From: Candidatus Brocadia sp.
GTDB taxonomy: Bacteria > Planctomycetota > Brocadiia > Brocadiales > Brocadiaceae
Length of the DNA: 34,686 nucleotides
Reading direction: 5' to 3'
Assembly (NCBI GenBank): GCA_021646415.1
Contig: SOEU01000030.1
Coordinates: 1-34,686, forward strand
Numbering within the stretch: the stretch's first letter is position 1; the number at the start of each line of letters is the position of its first letter. Below the pieces are notes generated by a model. It saw only the letters and a program-made list of their open reading frames with translations. It searched no databases and was not told where the DNA came from. The position numbers and the translations under genes are program-made. Positions 16,166 through 27,216 of this stretch are shown here, one piece after another.

Positions 16166-16849
16166 CTTTTTGATATTGCAAAATACCAGCTCACCTGTAT
16201 AATTTATATCATTTGCTATTGAAAATATTAGTGTTTTGTGGTAAAAGTAAGTTACCGAAGGTTTACTTTAAAGTAAAGGAATTTAAAGTTGGTTATTTCC
16301 CCTTTAGAAAGAGGGGATTAAGGGGTGTGTAAATCTGCTATAACCCACCCCCAGCCCCCCTTGTTGGAGGGGGGGCTTAAAAGTTGCTGCCAAAGGCAGC
16401 ATGACTAATAGTATCATCTTTTTGGAGTCTAACCTATGATCTGGAAAAATTGCAGCTCATTCAAATACGGGTGAGTGTACTTACTGAAGTGGCGGCGCCA
16501 TTTCCAGGTTAAGTGGATAAGGTATAGGCTCTTACAGGATTGCCCGTAACGAACTTCCTAAAGGAGCAAGGTCTCTATATTACCTTGCTGTATACTTACC
16601 ATTCCCGCAAGAAGTCTTAGCCTTCATCCATCGCAGCTTCATCTTACCAGGAAAAGATACCGTCACTTCGTCCAATAGTTAATTGGGCAATCTGTTTTCA
16701 TGGTGACGCACTTCAGATATACACAGACCTCTTCTCGGTTCTTTTGCGCAAGCTCAGTCGAACGTTGAAGGGGGTGGACTGCCATTGCAAAATAATATCT
16801 TAAGTCGTCGAAGGCCTAATTTAAGGTTTTTTCAATGGAGGATGTAATC
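16166..16849. other. Gap before fdhA
   Basis: Contains C-rich hairpin repeats (16298-16380), then an unexplained stretch at about 16480-16690. Its minus strand reads GQSCKSLYLIHLTWKWRRHF in one frame and FRKFVTGNPVRAYTLST in another. Such overlapping coding-like frames often come from a structured RNA or an old mobile element. A truncated 'agctcagtcgaacgttgaag' repeat lies at about 16750-16775. The fdhA ribosome-binding site GGAGG is at 16837-16841. No complete gene. Confidence 0.45.
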
Positions 16850-19537
16850 ATGGTATCTTTGTTAATCGATGGGAAAAAAGTGGAGGCTGAATCTACTCAA
16901 ACCATTTTACAAGCTGCACAAAAAGTGGGAATTCGTATTCCCACCTTGTGTCACGACCCACGGCTCGCCCCTTCCGGGGCCTGTCGGATGTGCGTGGTAG
17001 AGGTAGAGGGTGCGCGATCCCTGGTCGCTTCCTGTGCAACCCCTGTCTCAGAAGGAATGAAGATCTCTACCCGGAGTGAATCAGTAACACGTGCACGAAA
17101 ACTCAATCTGGAGCTTATCTGGTCTAACCATCCCAATGATTGTCTGACATGCGACAAGGCAGGGGAATGCCAGCTTCAAAAATTTATGTATGAATATGAT
17201 GTAAAGACCTCACGGTTTGTCGAACAAAATCCGCCCCCAACGCCAGACGATTCAAACCCCGGCATCTACCGGGATATGAACAAATGCATTCTCTGCGGAA
17301 AATGCGTCAGGATTTGTGATGAGGTTCAAAACCAGCACATCTGGGCATTTTCAAACCGCGGGATGCAAACCTCAATCGCAACGGCCTTTGAAAAACCCTT
17401 AAAAGATGCAGGTTGTGTATTTTGCGGGCACTGCGTTTCCGTATGTCCGGTAGGCGCCCTCATGGATAAACCTGCTGCAAAAAAGGGTCGCTCCTGGGAA
17501 ACCAAGAAGGTGCGCACGGTTTGCAGTTACTGCGGTGTGGGGTGCAGCCTCGTGCTTCATGTGAAAGGGGGTGAAATTCTCAAGGTAACGGCCGATACCC
17601 ATGATGCCCCAAATTATGGCAGTTTGTGTGTCAAGGGTCGATATGGATACGAGTTTTACAAGAGCCCGGACCGTTTAAAGTCCCCATTGATTCGAGATCG
17701 TATTGACCAGCCCTTTCGGGAGGCAAGCTGGGATGAGGCGATCAGCCTGGTAGCCGGGAAACTGATAGAGATCAAGCAGAAATATGGTGCAGATACAGTT
17801 GGATGCCTCAGTTCCTCAAGAGGTACAAACGAAGAAAATTATCTGGCTCAAAAATTTGCCCGTGCCGTGATAGGAACCAACAATATGGATAACTGTGCAC
17901 GGGTATGCCACGGTCCGTCAGTAACAGGCCTTAGGGCCTCGTTAGGAAGCGGAGCGGCTACCAATTCTCTGGCTGATATTGAGGGCGCAGAAGTCCTTAT
18001 CGTCAGCGGTTCCAATACCACAGAGGCACATCCTGTCGCAGCCTTAAAAATCAAAAAAGCGGTACGGCAGAACGGGGCAAAACTCATCGTAATTGATCCG
18101 CGGGAGATAGAACTCGTCCAGTACGCAACCGTGTGGTTACGTTTAAAACCGGGCACCAACGTAGCCCTTATCAACGGACTGTTGCATGTTATTTTAAAAG
18201 AAGGTCTGGAAAACAGGGAATTTATCCAGCAACGGACAGAGAACATAGACATGTTACGACAGGTAGCAGCCCAGTATACCCCTGAAAAGACAGAGGAAAT
18301 TACAGGGGTACCAAAAGAGGATATCATTAAGGCTGCCAGAATTTACGCCGGCACTCGGAAGGGTATGATTGTCTACGGATTGGGAATGACCGAACATAAG
18401 GCCGGCTCTCATGGCGTCATGTCCCTGGCCAATTTGGCTTTGATTACGGGCAATGTGGGCAGACCAAATACCGGGATCAATCCGCTTCGCGGACAGAATA
18501 ACGTCCAGGGTTCGTGCGATATGGGGGCATTGCCGGACGTATACAGTTGTTACCAGAAGGTAGATGATCCTGTTGCCAATAAGAAATTTTCTGAGACATG
18601 GAATTGCCAACTTCCCACAAAACCCGGCTTAAAAGAACCCCAGATGTACAGGGCTGCCCTGGCAGGAAAACTAAAAGCAATGTATATCATTGGATATGAC
18701 CCCGCTGCGACACAGGCCAATATCCATCATGTGCGGTCAGCCATAAAAAAACTTGATTTCCTTGTAGTACAGGAGCTTTTTATGACGGAGACGGCAAAAC
18801 TGGCCCATGTGATACTCCCCGCTGGCTGTTTCTTTGAGAAAGACGGCACCTTTACCAACGCAGAAAGAAGGGTCAGGCTGCTGAATCAAGCCATCCCATT
18901 GCCTAAGGGGACAAAACATGATTGGGAAATCATATGCCTGATAGCCAGCGCTATGGGTTATCCCATGCAGTATAACCATCCAGGAGAAATTATGAGGGAA
19001 ATTGCCAGCCTTACCCCGGAGTTTGCGGGAATTGATTACGAGCGGCTTAAAGGGGATGGATTGGTTTGGCCTGTGTGGGACAAGAAACATCCTGGCACAC
19101 CCATTTTGCATAAAGACACATTCACAAGGGGAAAAGGAAGGTTTAACGACCTCTTGTACACCCCTTCGGAGGAATTACCCGATGACAACTATCCTTTATA
19201 TCTGACCACAGGCCGTCGCCTTTACCATTACAACAACGGCTCCATGTCATTACGAAACCCGGAAATTTATTCAATCAGTTCTGAGGAATTCGTCGAAATC
19301 CATCCCGGCGAGGCTGAAGCATTGGGAATAAAAACAGGGGATACTGTAAGGGTAAAATCAAGACGTGGTTCTTTGGAAGTAAAGGCACATGTTACACCAA
19401 AGTCTCGACCCGGGAGCGTATTCCTGTCCTTCCATTTCCCGGAAACCCCAACGAATGTTCTGACGGGTCCAGGGGAAGACCTATTGGCGCTTACCCCCGA
19501 ATATAAGGTGTGTGCTGTAAAGGTAGAGAAGATTTAG
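16850..19537 (+). CDS. fdhA: Formate dehydrogenase catalytic subunit (NAD-linked type)
   Basis: The 895-residue protein has a NuoG-like N-terminus. A [2Fe-2S] ferredoxin domain (Cys34, Cys45, Cys48, Cys62) precedes a His-Cys3 cluster (HPNDCLTCDKAGEC, about 94-107) and two [4Fe-4S] motifs (CILCGKCVRIC and CVFCGHCVSVC). The molybdopterin domain then has its own cluster (CSYCGVGC) and an MGD-binding C-terminal barrel. The catalytic motif is CARVCHGPS with Cys353 where E. coli FdhF has selenocysteine, next to the conserved His. It oxidises formate to CO2 and passes electrons through its clusters toward NuoE/NuoF encoded downstream. The start at 16850 is chosen because GGAGG (16837-16841) lies 8 bases before it. 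In an autotrophic anammox-type cell the enzyme could also run toward CO2 reduction. Confidence 0.9.
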   Translation: MVSLLIDGKKVEAESTQTILQAAQKVGIRIPTLCHDPRLAPSGACRMCVVEVEGARSLVASCATPVSEGMKISTRSESVTRARKLNLELIWSNHPNDCLTCDKAGECQLQKFMYEYDVKTSRFVEQNPPPTPDDSNPGIYRDMNKCILCGKCVRICDEVQNQHIWAFSNRGMQTSIATAFEKPLKDAGCVFCGHCVSVCPVGALMDKPAAKKGRSWETKKVRTVCSYCGVGCSLVLHVKGGEILKVTADTHDAPNYGSLCVKGRYGYEFYKSPDRLKSPLIRDRIDQPFREASWDEAISLVAGKLIEIKQKYGADTVGCLSSSRGTNEENYLAQKFARAVIGTNNMDNCARVCHGPSVTGLRASLGSGAATNSLADIEGAEVLIVSGSNTTEAHPVAALKIKKAVRQNGAKLIVIDPREIELVQYATVWLRLKPGTNVALINGLLHVILKEGLENREFIQQRTENIDMLRQVAAQYTPEKTEEITGVPKEDIIKAARIYAGTRKGMIVYGLGMTEHKAGSHGVMSLANLALITGNVGRPNTGINPLRGQNNVQGSCDMGALPDVYSCYQKVDDPVANKKFSETWNCQLPTKPGLKEPQMYRAALAGKLKAMYIIGYDPAATQANIHHVRSAIKKLDFLVVQELFMTETAKLAHVILPAGCFFEKDGTFTNAERRVRLLNQAIPLPKGTKHDWEIICLIASAMGYPMQYNHPGEIMREIASLTPEFAGIDYERLKGDGLVWPVWDKKHPGTPILHKDTFTRGKGRFNDLLYTPSEELPDDNYPLYLTTGRRLYHYNNGSMSLRNPEIYSISSEEFVEIHPGEAEALGIKTGDTVRVKSRRGSLEVKAHVTPKSRPGSVFLSFHFPETPTNVLTGPGEDLLALTPEYKVCAVKVEKI

Positions 19538-19917: not shown

Positions 19918-20703
19918 ATGTTAACACCAAAGGTATTAATCCTCAGAACGGCTGGTACAAATTGCGATTACGAAACCCGATACGCCTTCGAAAAGGCAGG
20001 GGCAAAGGTGGATGTTGTTCACATCAACGTCCTCCTTGCCAACAAGAAACTATTGAAAGATTATCAAATATTAACCCTGCCGGGCGGGTTTACCTATGGC
20101 GATGATGTTTCCGCAGGTAAAATACTGGCAAACCAGATCAAATACAATTTGGAAGAAGATATTAAAACCTTTATTCATGAGAAAAAACTCATCCTTGGTG
20201 TATGTAACGGATTTCAAACACTGACAAAGGCCGGGTTATTGCCATTTATTAATAAAAATCACCAGGAGGCCACTTTAACCTTTAACGACTCGAACAAATT
20301 CGAAGATCGATGGGTGTATTTAAAAGTTTGTTCGAATAAATCTGTCTTTATCAAGGATACTGACATTCCGGCAATATATCTGCCCATAGCACACGGGGAA
20401 GGGAAGTTTATCACAAAGGACGAAACAGTCCTGAATAAAATCACAATGAATCATCAGGTCGTCTTTAAATACGTAAACGAGCGTGGTGAAGAAGCAGGCT
20501 ACCCATGGAATCCCGCCGGTTCCATTCAAAATATAGCAGGTATCTGTGACCCGACCGGTCAAATCCTGGGTATGATGCCCCACCCTGAAAGACACGTAGA
20601 ACCGACACAGCATCCGCATTGGACACGCAACGGACTCAAGGAATGGGGAGACGGGTTTTTCATTTTTAAAAATGCAGTTCAATATGTGAAAACGAGTTTC
20701 TGA
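19918..20703 (+). CDS. purQ: Phosphoribosylformylglycinamidine synthase, glutaminase subunit
   Basis: The 261-residue class I glutamine amidotransferase of the purine pathway. It supplies ammonia to PurL for converting FGAR to FGAM. The nucleophile is Cys96 in LGVCNGFQTL and the catalytic pair is His-Glu in MMPHPERHVEP. The start PKVLILRTAGTNCDYETRYA is typical of the longer PurQ form with a C-terminal extension (HPHWTRNGLKEWGDGFFIF), which matches stand-alone PurQ of many deep-branching bacteria. No purL or purS lies nearby. The gene sits between fdhA and nuoE, flanked on both sides by copies of the same repeat family, so it looks like an insertion into the formate dehydrogenase operon. No obvious ribosome-binding site precedes the ATG. 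Confidence 0.9.
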   Translation: MLTPKVLILRTAGTNCDYETRYAFEKAGAKVDVVHINVLLANKKLLKDYQILTLPGGFTYGDDVSAGKILANQIKYNLEEDIKTFIHEKKLILGVCNGFQTLTKAGLLPFINKNHQEATLTFNDSNKFEDRWVYLKVCSNKSVFIKDTDIPAIYLPIAHGEGKFITKDETVLNKITMNHQVVFKYVNERGEEAGYPWNPAGSIQNIAGICDPTGQILGMMPHPERHVEPTQHPHWTRNGLKEWGDGFFIFKNAVQYVKTSF

Positions 20704-20855: not shown

Positions 20856-21350
20856 ATGCAGAAAACTGTTACCATAAACAAAGAAAATACATCTGCGGTT
20901 GATTTATCCAAATGTCGGTCCATACTTTCAAAATATAACAACGCAACCCCTGCAGACCTTATCCCTATCTTACAACAAGTGCAGGATGCGTATGGATATT
21001 TACCCCAAAACGCTTTGGAAGAAATAACAACCGGAACACGCATCCCCCTGAGCAAGATTTACGGCGTCATCACCTTTTACTCACAATTTTCTTTGGAACC
21101 CAGGGGCAAACATACGATTAAGGTTTGTACCGGTACGGCATGCCATATCAAAGGTGCACCTGATATAAAGAAAAAAATCACGGAAGTCCTTCGGATCAAT
21201 GAGGGAGAAACAACACAGGATTACAAATTCTCGTATGAACCGGTAGCCTGTCTGGGAACATGTTTTCTGGCACCGGTCATGATGATTGACGATAGATATT
21301 ACGGAAAACTGACTGTTGAAAAAACAGAGACTATTCTTAAGAGCTATTAA
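20856..21350 (+). CDS. nuoE: NuoE-like subunit of NAD-linked formate dehydrogenase
   Basis: A 164-residue thioredoxin-like [2Fe-2S] protein. After a helical N-domain (CRSILSKYNNATPADLIPIL, then LQQVQDAYGYLPQNALEEI) come the cluster ligands CTGTACH and, about 40 residues later, CLGTC, in the NuoE order C-x4-C...C-x3-C. It passes electrons between the catalytic subunit and the FMN/NADH subunit encoded by nuoF. The ribosome-binding site AAAGGAG precedes the ATG. It is separated from nuoF by a toxin-antitoxin pair, unlike the usual direct neighbourhood. Its companions in this order (FdhA, NuoE, NuoF) indicate a soluble NAD-dependent complex rather than respiratory complex I. Confidence 0.9.
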   Translation: MQKTVTINKENTSAVDLSKCRSILSKYNNATPADLIPILQQVQDAYGYLPQNALEEITTGTRIPLSKIYGVITFYSQFSLEPRGKHTIKVCTGTACHIKGAPDIKKKITEVLRINEGETTQDYKFSYEPVACLGTCFLAPVMMIDDRYYGKLTVEKTETILKSY

Positions 21351-21411: not shown

Positions 21412-21636
21412 ATGGCAAAGGCAAAAGAGGAAGCTATTAAACTCATTCAGAAATTACCAGATGAATGTACGATTACTGACATTATGGCAGAACTCTATTT
21501 CAAACAGAAGGTAGAGCAGGGTTCAAAAGACATTGAGGAAGGAAGAACTATGACTCATGCAGAAGTCAGAAAAAGGATGGCTAAATGGGTAAAATCCATT
21601 GGTCAAAAACAGCACAACGAAATCTTGAAGAAATAG
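21412..21636 (+). CDS. ParD/RelB-like antitoxin
   Basis: About 74 residues from MAKAKEEAIKLIQKLPDE; a TTG start at 21400 is also possible. The N-terminal CTITDIMAELYFKQKVEQG and the central TMTHAEVRKRMAKW are typical of antitoxins paired with RelE/ParE toxins in anammox and cyanobacterial genomes. Close relatives usually end shortly after 'MAKW'; this one runs on with VKSIGQKQHNEILKK inside the toxin gene, giving a long 52-bp overlap. A frameshift near the 3' end is therefore possible. It should bind the ParE-like toxin and repress its own promoter. Confidence 0.7.
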   Translation: MAKAKEEAIKLIQKLPDECTITDIMAELYFKQKVEQGSKDIEEGRTMTHAEVRKRMAKWVKSIGQKQHNEILKK

Positions 21637-21977
21637 CTGACTATATTGCACAAGATTCTCCTTTCTATGCAATAAACTTTATTGAAAGGGTTTTGCAAGA
21701 TATTGAAAAGCTTGGTGATTTCCCAAAAATCGGGAGAATAGTGCCGGAATTTAAAAAAGAAAATATCAGAGAAATAATATTTCATAATTACCGGATTGTT
21801 TATAAGGCAAAGATTGCATATTTATTGTTTCATTATGTCATGGAAGTATTGATATCGTTAGAAAGGCAAAAACTGAAAGTTGGGAAATCAAATAATCTTA
21901 CAGGAATATATGGAGAAATTGAAAACGACTTTATTTCTTTATTTAAAAGCCTTATAAAAAGGCCAAAGGAAATATGA
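21585..21977 (+). CDS. RelE/ParE-type toxin, 3' part frameshifted
   Basis: The first 75 residues (IHWSKTAQRNLEEIADYIAQ, YAINFIERVLQDIEKLGDFP and IGRIVPEFKKENIREIIFHNYRIVYK) are a clear ParE/RelE toxin. After IVYK the frame reads AKIAYLLFHYVMEV with no family resemblance. The expected ending is present in the frame two bases on: GKDCIFIVSLCHGSIDIVRK, stopping at 21895. One extra G in TATAAGGCAAAG would restore it, giving about 103 residues. The toxin is thus probably inactivated by a 1-bp deletion near 21810, or there is a sequencing error. It lies between nuoE and nuoF and would be transcribed with them. Confidence 0.75.
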   Translation: MGKIHWSKTAQRNLEEIADYIAQDSPFYAINFIERVLQDIEKLGDFPKIGRIVPEFKKENIREIIFHNYRIVYKAKIAYLLFHYVMEVLISLERQKLKVGKSNNLTGIYGEIENDFISLFKSLIKRPKEI

Positions 21978-22011: not shown

Positions 22012-23694
22012 GTGGAAAAATTAAAAAACCCTGATGATCTCCAGAAGTTCAGGAAATCCCTTGAATCGAAACATCGCCCTGACACGGTACGCATATTTAT
22101 CTGTACCACAGGTTGCAGGGCACTGGGAGCGGAAGAAGTATGCAAGGCATTCAAGACTGAGATTGAAAGGCAATCACTTACAGATAAGATAGAAATTGTA
22201 GACACGGGTTGTCAGGGTCTCTGTGCCAGAGCCCCCGTCATGACCATAGAACCCATGGGCGTTTTCTATGGACGGGTAACGGAAACCGATGTCCCGGAAA
22301 TTATTTCCCGAACCATCCTGAAAGGGGAAATTATTGAACGTCTCTGTTATGTGGAGGCAGGCAAACGCGTCCCTTATATCCGTGATATCCCTTTTTACAG
22401 CAAACAAAAAAAGATTGTCCTTAAAAATTGCGGTACTATCGATCCAAAAAATATAAATGAATACATCCTGAGGGAGGGATATTTGGCATTTTCAAAGGTA
22501 CTCTCCGGCATGACACCAGACCAGGTCATCGATGAGATTAAAAACTCAGGTCTGCGGGGCAGGGGTGGAGCAGGGTTTCCAACAGGAAACAAATGGGAAT
22601 TCGTCAAAAAGGCACAGGGAGATATAAAATATTTAATCTGTAATGGAGACGAAGGAGATCCGGGCGCCTTTATGGACCGGGCAGTTCTCGAAGGCGACCC
22701 CAACTCAGTTATCGAAGGAATGCTTATCGGTGCTTATGCAATTGGGTCACGAAAAGGAATTATCTATGTACGCGCAGAATATCCCATCGCCGTGGAGCAT
22801 CTGAAAATTGCCATAGAACAAGCAAAATCACTCGGTCTCTTGGGTGAAAACATCCTCGGATCAAATTTCAGCTTTGATCTGGACATCAAGATGGGTGCCG
22901 GTGCATTCGTATGCGGGGAAGAAACCGCCCTCATAGCCTCCATAGAAGGGAAGAGAGGCATGCCGCGTCCCCGTCCTCCATTCCCGGCAACCAGTGGTCT
23001 TTGGGGAAAACCTACAAACATTAATAATGTAGAAACCTTTGCAAATGTACCCGTCATCATCCTGAAAGGTTCTGAATGGTATAAGGCCATTGGCACAGAA
23101 ACCAGTAAAGGTACAAAAATATTTGCCCTGGCAGGCAATGTGAAAAATACCGGCCTTGTTGAAGTTCCAATGGGAACAACACTCCGTGAGATTGTCTTTG
23201 ATATCGGGGGAGGTATTCCGGGTCGGAAAAAATTCAAGGCTGCACAGATGGGTGGTCCTTCCGGTGGGTGCGTACCCGCCCAGCATCTTGACCTTCCCAT
23301 CGATTATGAAACCGTTAAAGAGGTGGGGGCTATTATGGGTTCCGGTGGTCTTATTGTAATGGATGACTCAGCCTCCATGGTCGATATTGCACGGTATTTT
23401 ATGGAATTTTGTCAGGATGAATCCTGCGGAAAGTGTGTGCCGTGCAGGATCGGAACAAAGAGAATGCTCGACATCCTCACACGGATTACCAAGGGGCAGG
23501 GCAAGAAAGAGGATATTGGTTTATTAAAGGAACTGGCCGAGGTCACCAAAACAGCGTCCTTATGTGGTCTTGGACAAACGGCAGCAAACCCGGTACTTTC
23601 TACCATCCGTTACTATCTTAATGAATACGAGGAATTAATCGATAAAAAAGGCGTCCACACTTCACCGCAACAGAATCCCACAACACAACCTTAA
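22012..23694 (+). CDS. nuoF: NuoF-like FMN/NADH subunit of formate dehydrogenase
   Basis: The 560-residue protein has a thioredoxin-like [2Fe-2S] N-domain (CTTGC...DTGCQGLCARAP, about 30-75). The NuoF core follows, with FMN loop GLRGRGGAGFPTGNKWEF (about 180), NADH-contact region CNGDEGDPGAFMDR, GAGAFVCGEETAL and the [4Fe-4S] ligands ESCGKCVPCRIGT plus a later Cys. It reduces NAD with electrons from formate. The C-terminal 2x[4Fe-4S] domain found in HydB/HndC of bifurcating hydrogenases is missing. Plain NAD reduction is therefore more likely than ferredoxin-based bifurcation. The GTG start has AAAGGAG upstream. It follows the toxin gene by 34 bp and is followed by the sensor kinase after 8 bp. 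Confidence 0.9.
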   Translation: MEKLKNPDDLQKFRKSLESKHRPDTVRIFICTTGCRALGAEEVCKAFKTEIERQSLTDKIEIVDTGCQGLCARAPVMTIEPMGVFYGRVTETDVPEIISRTILKGEIIERLCYVEAGKRVPYIRDIPFYSKQKKIVLKNCGTIDPKNINEYILREGYLAFSKVLSGMTPDQVIDEIKNSGLRGRGGAGFPTGNKWEFVKKAQGDIKYLICNGDEGDPGAFMDRAVLEGDPNSVIEGMLIGAYAIGSRKGIIYVRAEYPIAVEHLKIAIEQAKSLGLLGENILGSNFSFDLDIKMGAGAFVCGEETALIASIEGKRGMPRPRPPFPATSGLWGKPTNINNVETFANVPVIILKGSEWYKAIGTETSKGTKIFALAGNVKNTGLVEVPMGTTLREIVFDIGGGIPGRKKFKAAQMGGPSGGCVPAQHLDLPIDYETVKEVGAIMGSGGLIVMDDSASMVDIARYFMEFCQDESCGKCVPCRIGTKRMLDILTRITKGQGKKEDIGLLKELAEVTKTASLCGLGQTAANPVLSTIRYYLNEYEELIDKKGVHTSPQQNPTTQP

Positions 23695-23702
23695 GGTGAA
23701 AT

Positions 23703-25640
23703 ATGAAGGTACTTCTCATCGGGGCAGGGAAAGGCGGATCTGCCCTTTTATCCATCCTGTACGAAGATAAGGAAATTGAGATTGTTGGAGTGGTGGATAA
23801 CAATCAACATGCTGAAGGACTAAAGATTGCAAGGCAATACAATATCCCTGCCTACTCCCATTATGAAAACCTGATAAAAAGGGAAGATCTCGATGTTATC
23901 ATCGATGTTACAAAAAATCCACAAGTACTCATTGATATAGAAAAAAATAAACCTGCAAACACTGAGATTCTGGGTGGTTTGAGTGCCAAACTTATATGGA
24001 GCCTGGTAGAGGAACGGAAGAAAAAAGAGGAGGAAATCCAAAAAAGTCTTTCTGAACAGAAGGCCCTTTACCGTATTGGGATTATGCTTTCCTCCGCGCG
24101 GGAAATGAATGAAGTGTTTCAAACCATCGTGAGAAGCGGCCTGGAAATAACAAACACTCCTGCCGGAAGCCTTGCTTTGTATGACGCAGAAAAAAACGAA
24201 CTGGAACTCACCGCTGTACATGGTTTCAGCCCGGAGTTTTCTTTAAAAGCAACACGATGGAAGGTAAGACCCGGTGGCCTTACCAGCAAAATCCTTTCAC
24301 AAAAACAGCCATTTGTGGTACCCGACATCAGCGGGGAGTCTTCAATCGACACAAAAGTTATTATGGCTGAAGGCATTCGCTCCCTGGTAGCCACCCCTCT
24401 CACCACTGAAAACAGGATTGTGGGTATCCTTTATGTAGACGATTACAAACCACGTACCTTTACCAAACGAGACATTTCTATCCTGGGACTCCTGGCAACA
24501 CAAGCAACCATTGCTATCGAAAAGGCAAAAATACAAGAGCAGCTTGAATTGAAAAATCAGAAACTCAAGCATACCATGGATTACCTGCAAAATATCCTGG
24601 ACAATTCTGCTGATATGATCATCACCACAGATATAGAAAATAATGTGGTAGAATTTAATAAATGTGCGGAAGAGATCCTGGGATACTTACAAAATGAGAT
24701 TGCAGGAAAGCCGCTCGCTGGATTATTTACTAACCCAGATCAATGCAGAATGTTATTAGAAAAGATTAAAAGAGAAGGGAAAGTCTCCAATCAGGAAACC
24801 CAGTTTATCACAAGGGAAAGGAAGATCGTTGATATCAGCCTTACCCTGTCTCAGCTCAAAGATACTGCGGGGAATATGATCGGAACCGTTGGAATTAGCA
24901 AAGATATTACGGAATTTAAGAGAACCCAGGCACAACTCATCCAGGCTGGAAAACTTGCCGGTATAGGTCAATTGGCTGCCGGCATTGCCCATGAAATTAA
25001 CAACCCGCTGAGTGGCGTATTAGGATACGCCAAAAGGCTTATGAAAAAGGCAGAGGACGAAGAACTCCGGAAAGTCCCGGCCTTCAAGACCTTCCCCAGA
25101 GAAATGAAACTGATCGCCGATTCCGCCCTGCGCTGCAAGAAAATCATCGAAGGCCTCCTGAAATTCTCCCGCACATCGGAGACAGAAAGTATGAACGTAA
25201 ATGTGAATGAAGTAATTGATGAATCTCTGGTACTGTTCGGGAATCAGTTATCATCCCACAACGTTGAACTAAACAAGGTTTTAAACCCCGACATTCCCAC
25301 GATTCGTGCAAATCATACTCAGATACAACAAGTTTTTACTGATATAATTATCAATGCACTGCAGGCCATGCCACAGGGAGGCAAACTGACGATCGTTACG
25401 AGGCCTATAAATTCTTTTGCTGTTGAAATTGAATTTACTGACACAGGGGAAGGTATCTCCAAAGAAAATTTAACAAAGATATTCGAACCATTCTTTACTA
25501 CCCGCGAACCAGGCAAAGGAACAGGTTTGGGACTCTACATGATTTACAGGATTTTACAAAACCATCACGGACGTATCGATGTAAAAAGCGAGGTAGGGCA
25601 AGGTGCAACTTTTACGATAACCTTACCCTATAGCCATTAA
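23703..25640 (+). CDS. Rossmann-GAF-PAS hybrid sensor histidine kinase
   Basis: The 645-residue protein begins with an NAD(P)-binding Rossmann domain: [20 protein letters not shown] (GxGxxG), then [12 protein letters not shown] and DVIIDVTKN. It covers about 110 residues and resembles dihydrodipicolinate reductase/homoserine dehydrogenase N-domains. A GAF domain (about 140-275), a PAS domain (about 290-405) and the transmitter follow. The phosphorylated His is His430 in [17 protein letters not shown], and ATP-binding motifs are [21 protein letters not shown] and [11 protein letters not shown]. There is no membrane segment, so it senses an internal signal. Its place 8 bp after nuoF, with ribosome-binding site AAGGTG, suggests that it monitors the NAD(H) or redox state produced by the enzyme. 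Confidence 0.88.
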
Positions 25641-26025: not shown

Positions 26026-27216
26026 ATGCCAGGCGAAAGAATCTTAGTTATTGACGACGAAGAAATTATCTGCAGTTTACTCAAAGACACCCTGACCGAT
26101 GAAGGATATCAGGTGGAAACAGTAACCGACAGCAAAGAAGGGCTTGAGAAGATTCTCAGGGGGGAACCTTTTGACGTACTCCTGACGGACATTCGTATGC
26201 CGAAAAAAGACGGGATGCAAATACTCAAGGAATCAAAAAGTCGCATGCCGGACATGATCGTTATCATCATAACCGGGTATCCGAGTATCGAAACCATTCG
26301 GGAGGCAAGTGAATACAATGCCTTTGATTATATTACAAAACCCCTCGATCCTGACGAGGTATGTGATTGTATTAAACGTTCCCTGGAAGCACGAAAATTA
26401 TCCAGAGAACTAAAAATCCCCGAAAAACCGCCCAGGATACTTGTGGTAGACGACATGCAATCGGCATTGTTTCTGGCAGAAGGCGTATTGGAAGACGAGG
26501 GTTATCATGCAGAAATCGCACAAAACGGTCAGGAAGCCCTCGAAAGGTTCAAACAAAAACACTTTGATATCGTAATCGCCGACCTCCACATGCCTGGCAT
26601 GGACGGCATCGAACTCCTGAACAACATCAAAAAGCTGGATATCAAGACGCTGGTCATCATCATGACGGCACGCCCCAGCATAGAATCGGCCATCCAGGCC
26701 TTCCGGCATGGTGCCTACGACTATATTACAAAACCTATCGACCCCGATACGATCATTAACACCATCCAGCGGGGATTTGAAAAACACCAACTCGAGATCA
26801 ATACGGATAAATTACTAAAACGCCTTCAGGACTTACGCCAACAATTGATCGATGAAAATACATCGCTCATGAAAGAAAGAGACTCTGCGAATAACATCAT
26901 AAATGCCGCACCGGACCTTATTATCACAACAGACGAGCATGCCAATATACGCACCATTAATAGCGCAACTGTAGGACTTCTGGGCTATAAAAAGGAAGAA
27001 CTCCTGGGAAAATCCATTGATAGTATCTTTGACGAAAAGAAAAACTTTTTTACGGGAATGGATTTTGAGAAGATGTTAAAAGAAGGCCCCGTTTACAACT
27101 ATCCCCTGACCTGCATCACAAATAAAGGTAGTAAGATAAAGACCGTCTGGTCTGGCGCTCCTATCCTCGACAAGGAAAAAGTGGCAAAAGGTGTTGTGGG
27201 AATCGGGAGAAAATAG
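26026..27216 (+). CDS. Tandem-receiver response regulator with PAS domain
   Basis: The 396-residue protein has two receiver domains and a PAS domain. The first receiver (about 5-120) has DDEE, phospho-Asp55 in LLTDIRMP, and the conserved Lys in YITKPLDP. The second (about 137-250) has VDD, Asp186 in IADLHMPGMDG, Thr in MTARPS and YITKPIDP. After a helical linker (about 262-290) comes a PAS domain (INAAPDLIITTDEHANIRTI and onward). No DNA-binding, GGDEF or kinase output domain follows, so it probably relays phosphate or interacts with another protein. It lies 385 bp after the sensor kinase and is the obvious partner. Ribosome-binding site GGGAGGA. Confidence 0.88.
   Translation: MPGERILVIDDEEIICSLLKDTLTDEGYQVETVTDSKEGLEKILRGEPFDVLLTDIRMPKKDGMQILKESKSRMPDMIVIIITGYPSIETIREASEYNAFDYITKPLDPDEVCDCIKRSLEARKLSRELKIPEKPPRILVVDDMQSALFLAEGVLEDEGYHAEIAQNGQEALERFKQKHFDIVIADLHMPGMDGIELLNNIKKLDIKTLVIIMTARPSIESAIQAFRHGAYDYITKPIDPDTIINTIQRGFEKHQLEINTDKLLKRLQDLRQQLIDENTSLMKERDSANNIINAAPDLIITTDEHANIRTINSATVGLLGYKKEELLGKSIDSIFDEKKNFFTGMDFEKMLKEGPVYNYPLTCITNKGSKIKTVWSGAPILDKEKVAKGVVGIGRK

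Follow-up and report, generated by a model that had tools for sequence, protein, structure and literature searches.

A mini-Rossmann domain found on a Brocadiaceae histidine kinase and on many other bacterial signalling proteins is a candidate NAD(H)-sensing input module

A small N-terminal Rossmann domain, first noticed on a histidine kinase encoded in the window (the whole stretch of 34,686 nucleotides that was analysed), is often used as an input module by bacterial signalling proteins of many types, among them histidine kinases, diguanylate cyclases, chemoreceptor-type proteins, sigma-54 activators (BkdR-like) and LuxR-type proteins. The nearest named relatives of the source genome are Candidatus Brocadiaceae, and the genome looks like that of an anammox planctomycete. 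We favour, with moderate confidence, the interpretation that residues 1-100 of the kinase derive from a dehydrogenase, bind NAD(H) with their Rossmann fold and serve as an input module in the cytosol, through which the kinase would read NAD(H) state.

The ORF at 23703-25640 of the forward strand is a single open frame encoding 645 amino acids, in which a mini-Rossmann domain (residues 1 to about 100) precedes a GAF-PAS-HisKA-HATPase histidine kinase (Table 1). Within the N-terminal domain, the GAGKGGS loop occupies residues 7-13 and DVIIDVTKN residues 64-72; Pfam matched GFO_IDH_MocA at residues 1-72 (32.8 bits against a cutoff of 24) and DapB_N at residues 1-75 (29.4 bits against a cutoff of 25.6). 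Pfam and motifs together identify the remainder as a histidine kinase, with the H box in HisKA and the N, G1, F and G2 boxes in HATPase_c. Other Brocadiaceae keep the fusion as a single ORF, with 79-97% identity in the domain. Pfam, AlphaFold2 and this conserved single ORF confirm the earlier note's description of a Rossmann domain fused to a GAF-PAS histidine kinase. That the fusion arose by chance or as an annotation artefact is an explanation for which we found no supporting points and which we give practically no credence; it is already refuted by the conservation of the fusion, as the single open frame is kept in about a dozen Brocadiaceae genomes and the same domain occurs on signalling proteins in several phyla.

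Table 1. Coordinates in the window of the kinase, its domains and motifs, and neighbouring genes.
Feature	Coordinates	Strand	Evidence
FdhA, formate dehydrogenase alpha subunit	16835..19537	+	TIGR01591, 843.9 bits (cutoff 666.25)
NuoE-like subunit	20856..21350	+	2Fe-2S_thioredx 9.4e-52; NuoE equivalog model passed
NuoF-like diaphorase subunit of formate dehydrogenase	22012..23694	+	Complex1_51K, NADH_4Fe-4S
N-terminal Rossmann domain, residues 1-100	23703..24002	+	Pfam above curated cutoffs; AlphaFold2; VIA
GAGKGG loop, residues 7-12, GxGxxG dinucleotide-binding signature	23721..23738	+	Conservation in the 65-protein set
Asp32, end of strand 2, NAD-type acidic residue	23796..23798	+	Conservation; aligned to Asp of Rex
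Thr70-Lys71-Asn72 after strand 4; family consensus T-G-[DSN]	23910..23918	+	Family residue frequencies
Linker helix, residues 93-124, begins directly at strand 5 end	23979..24074	+	DSSP on AlphaFold2 model
GAF domain, residues 133-273	24099..24521	+	Pfam GAF_2 2.9e-19
PAS domain, residues 295-404	24585..24914	+	Pfam PAS_9 2.2e-14, PAS 6.1e-13
HisKA, residues 422-491, phospho-acceptor His430 in HEINNP	24966..25175	+	Pfam 2.4e-11; motif
HATPase_c, residues 538-643; N, G1, F, G2 boxes intact	25314..25631	+	Pfam 8.4e-25; motifs
Putative partner: two receiver domains and C-terminal PAS	26026..27216	+	Pfam Response_reg x2, PAS_9; motifs

Given 41 related domains as input, AlphaFold2 modelled the Rossmann domain with a mean pLDDT of 93.4, and the strand-helix alternation of a Rossmann fold was evident in the model and in Foldseek and VIA comparisons. 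The modelled strands span residues 2-6, 26-31, 65-68 and 88-91, with a short extended stretch near 49-50. The last strand (strand 5, EILGG) is followed directly by one continuous helix, residues 93-124, and then by the GAF domain (AlphaFold2, Pfam). A chemoreceptor-type member of the family, modelled separately (pLDDT 91.9), likewise has a helix right after its last strand. Neither the Gfo/Idh/MocA C-terminal catalytic domain nor its EKP motif was found in the protein by Pfam or AlphaFold2, and the earlier note was right that the domain has no catalytic part, with strand 5 running straight into the helix.

Fold neighbours at Z 10-12 were Gfo/Idh/MocA enzymes, acylating acetaldehyde dehydrogenases, Rex and other Rossmann proteins (Foldseek, VIA), and in searches against sequences the domain profile matched acetaldehyde dehydrogenase at 3.5e-8 and Rex at 4.8e-4. 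With the acylating acetaldehyde dehydrogenases (DmpF/BphJ type) and the Gfo/Idh/MocA enzymes the domain has in common the fold, the GxGxxG loop and the strand order, and with acetaldehyde dehydrogenase also a G-L-x-x-A segment after strand 2; unlike these enzymes, it leads from strand 5 into a signalling helix. Rex, the best known bacterial NADH sensor, resembles it in having a regulatory Rossmann domain with GxGxxG and an Asp at the end of strand 2. Rex is, however, a winged-helix repressor with a C-terminal Rossmann domain, whereas the domain described here stands at the N-terminus of kinases and other outputs; by Pfam, a Rex-type N-terminal winged helix is absent from the kinase, in which all that follows the N-terminal Rossmann domain is GAF-PAS-HK.

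Our initial scan of relatives (80 loci) used the glycine motif as its search pattern and was therefore uninformative on glycine conservation. For that test we instead used a profile (A4) that starts at residue 15 and omits the glycine loop, searched in 247 genomes from the phylum of a Deltaproteobacterial record and in 249 genomes from the phylum of Bacillus siamensis. A set of 65 proteins was taken from the higher-scoring matches in both phylum searches and one further search. In this set, recovered with a loop-free profile, Gly7 was present in 65 of 65, Gly9 in 61 and Gly12 in 52 (by weighted frequency, Cys replaces Gly at residue 12), and among the proteins found with A4 a GxG was still present upstream of the profile start in 61/65. 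The earlier note had named poor conservation of these glycines among homologues as the result that would tell against it; they are conserved.

Residue 32, which ends strand 2, was acidic in all 65 proteins (Asp in 63, Glu in 2); Rossmann dehydrogenases with an acidic side chain in this place usually bind NAD and not NADP. Ala43 was likewise present in 65/65, and weighted frequencies in the strand-4 loop were 0.90 for Thr and 0.84 for Gly, with Lys71 standing in the Brocadiaceae kinase where the family usually has Gly. Residue 10, mostly Lys or Arg in this set, appears to be the equivalent of Ala12 in B. subtilis IolG. The title of 4l8v, among the fold matches, describes a B. subtilis IolG A12K/D35S mutant crystallised with NADP, and the Lys or Arg at residue 10 may leave some room for NADP as the ligand. 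The positions expected to contact NAD, set from general Rossmann topology and not from a ligand complex, showed higher conservation than the remaining positions (2.39 against 1.79 bits on average; permutation p = 0.008). Minus the glycine loop, the contact positions of the 65-protein set were not significantly more conserved (permutation p = 0.13), so the pattern is also compatible with other ligands or a structural role. Three divergent GAF-array members (L108, L109 and L110) carry GANREG or GANKDG in place of GAGKGG, and their nucleotide binding may have been lost or changed.

On present comparisons, NAD(H) appears to be the best explanation of a domain that in sequence and fold lies nearest to NAD-dependent enzymes and to Rex, a sensor of NADH; counting against it are Lys71 in place of the family Gly, the Lys or Arg at residue 10, the occurrence of the formate dehydrogenase in relatives that lack the kinase, and the loci read outside Brocadiaceae, where no NADH gene neighbour was apparent (see below). 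The pocket could instead sense NADPH, an adenine nucleotide, a CoA ester or some other metabolite, which we judge unlikely, if deserving of attention. Lys and Arg are common at position 10, a CoA_binding match is present (weak, below the Pfam cutoff), and VIA aligned the fold with TrkA bound to ATP-gamma-S, with KefC and with folate-dependent formyltransferases. Regulatory Rossmann domains of the RCK/TrkA type can sense ATP; they resemble the domain in using a Rossmann fold in a regulatory role (Z 10.4) and differ in gating ion transport proteins and in their ring assemblies. The control of branched-chain amino acid catabolism by BkdR, as given in an excerpt of PMC4428206, would also suit a metabolite ligand. 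Weighing against ligands of this kind, the acidic residue 32 in 65/65 proteins is an NAD-type signature that disfavours a 2'-phosphate, and by sequence the domain comes closest to NAD-dependent enzymes and Rex.

We consider it more improbable still that the domain responds to no ligand, as a fold recruited for dimerisation or scaffolding whose glycines and Asp persist because folding, or a nucleotide that never leaves, requires them. Loops are altered in some members, such as GANREG in the GAF-array proteins, and outside the glycine loop conservation is not significantly focused on the pocket, both as this explanation would have it. Asp32 is not needed for the fold, yet it is near-invariant across very different outputs, and a module combined with so many outputs also speaks against a purely structural role; its wide use on different outputs is as expected for a sensory module.

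At 1e-8, A4 matched 72 of the 247 genomes from the Deltaproteobacterial record's phylum and 74 of the 249 from the Bacillus siamensis phylum, placing the domain in about 30% of sampled genomes in two phyla. Pfam outputs among the 65 proteins were MCPsignal (21), HisKA (19), GGDEF (8), Sigma54_activat (7) and GerE (5), accompanied by many GAF and PAS domains; in our first set (n = 41), Sigma54_activat with HTH_8 was found in 14 and HisKA in 20. Deltaproteobacterial members of 453 aa were first read as kinases, a reading rejected on the presence of a GGDEF motif. A few family members stand alone, at 130-150 residues; two of these Rossmann proteins (L106 and L107; 135-139 residues) were noted as lacking an output domain. 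A quick tree of about 100 columns, in which the deep order is not resolved, gave at least 20 output-type changes against 52.7 when shuffled, and outputs are clustered on the tree but have probably been exchanged between members.

This survey of neighbouring domains in other phyla, which the earlier note had suggested, thus returned kinase, GGDEF, MCP, sigma-54 and LuxR outputs. We rejected the idea that the domain is unique to the kinase studied here, as it is found across phyla on many output types. The new NAD(H)-responsive sensor class envisaged in the earlier note holds up as a Rossmann input domain with conserved glycines and an acidic residue 32, and does not hold up as a class confined to this kinase; that interpretation is, overall, partly supported. 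Searches of the open-licence literature turned up no paper that describes the domain as a family of sensors. We tentatively propose that these N-terminal domains may form a large NAD(H)-sensing family, as yet without a name, that couples the cell's dinucleotide state to all the main bacterial output types, is present in roughly three in ten of the genomes sampled from two phyla, and has gone unnoticed because Pfam takes it for a fragment of an oxidoreductase.

Bacillus and Anoxybacillus sigma-54 activators of the BkdR type have the same N-terminal domain, at about 31-37% identity to that of the Brocadiaceae kinase, and differ in that their output is sigma-54 activation. We tentatively read the Bacillus activator loci found here as bkdR itself. 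An excerpt of the description of Bacillus thuringiensis BkdR (PMC4428206) gives its regulatory side only two PAS/PAC domains, with no mention there of a Rossmann domain.

In the window, the kinase start at 23703 follows the end of the nuoF-like ORF at 23694 by 8 bp, confirming the spacing given in the earlier note, and a Shine-Dalgarno-like AAGGTGA (23693-23699) ahead of the kinase overlaps the nuoF stop codon. The neighbouring genes encode an NAD-type formate dehydrogenase (FdhA, NuoE, NuoF), and a complex I cluster was ruled out, because the large subunit passes the FdhA model and does not reach the NuoG model TIGR01973 (420 against 470). Two further genes were assigned by eye: a PurQ-like glutamine amidotransferase gene (19918-20703) between FdhA and NuoE, its position kept across Brocadiaceae, and a RelE/ParE-like toxin gene (21585-21977) between nuoE and nuoF, an interval that in some relatives holds other small genes or nothing. 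Elsewhere in the same genome (G000:C27:639-3317) lies a second formate dehydrogenase homologue, with 52% identity and one in-frame TGA that is likely to encode selenocysteine.

In the Brocadiaceae loci read, the kinase follows nuoF; the gap between them is 8-9 bp in six of these loci and about 145-325 bp in another four. Co-occurrence failed as support for a link to formate dehydrogenase, since the family survey found the domain in 14/33 genomes and a formate dehydrogenase homologue in 32/33. No NADH-related neighbour genes were apparent in nine loci outside Brocadiaceae inspected by eye. The nuoF adjacency, offered in the earlier note as a pointer to NAD(H), is therefore weak evidence on the ligand: it is seen only in Brocadiaceae, it involves a formate dehydrogenase gene, and that dehydrogenase persists in relatives that have no kinase.

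A double-receiver protein with a PAS domain follows the kinase in Brocadiaceae relatives as well. Both receivers of the protein in the window contain the acceptor Asp and Lys motifs, and a DNA-binding output is absent from it. Two relatives (L181 and L182) keep FdhA, PurQ, NuoE and NuoF, and in both of them the kinase and the double receiver are gone. This joint loss supports the two proteins as one signalling unit, and retention of the dehydrogenase shows that it does not depend on that unit. The double-receiver protein is the putative phosphotransfer partner of the kinase.

Fold, conserved motifs, domain architecture, gene linkage and breadth of occurrence are established by the comparisons above. 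In the mechanism that we infer, for ligand identity, redox sensing, direction of control and phosphotransfer partner alike, NAD+ or NADH would occupy a site formed by the GAGKGG loop, Asp32 and the loop with Thr70 after strand 4, and the signal read would most likely be redox state or relative occupancy. The nicotinamide end would lie near the end of strand 5, where the catalytic part of an enzyme would start and where the chain here continues as helix 93-124 to GAF, PAS and kinase. A change in ligand or redox state could then shift this helix and alter kinase activity on His430, and the double-receiver protein encoded next to the kinase would receive the phosphate. For Brocadiaceae, this unit would track the NADH made by formate dehydrogenase.

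If this reading of the domain as an NAD(H) sensor is true, an NAD(H) input module on kinases, cyclases, chemotaxis-type and sigma-54 proteins would link redox metabolism to signalling in a general way. It would account for part of the input to regulators such as BkdR and would be testable directly in Bacillus. For anammox bacteria, it would point to a way in which cells keep watch on formate oxidation and on their supply of NADH. The more interesting outcome of the analysis is that the domain is a widespread signalling module, with the Brocadiaceae kinase as one example.
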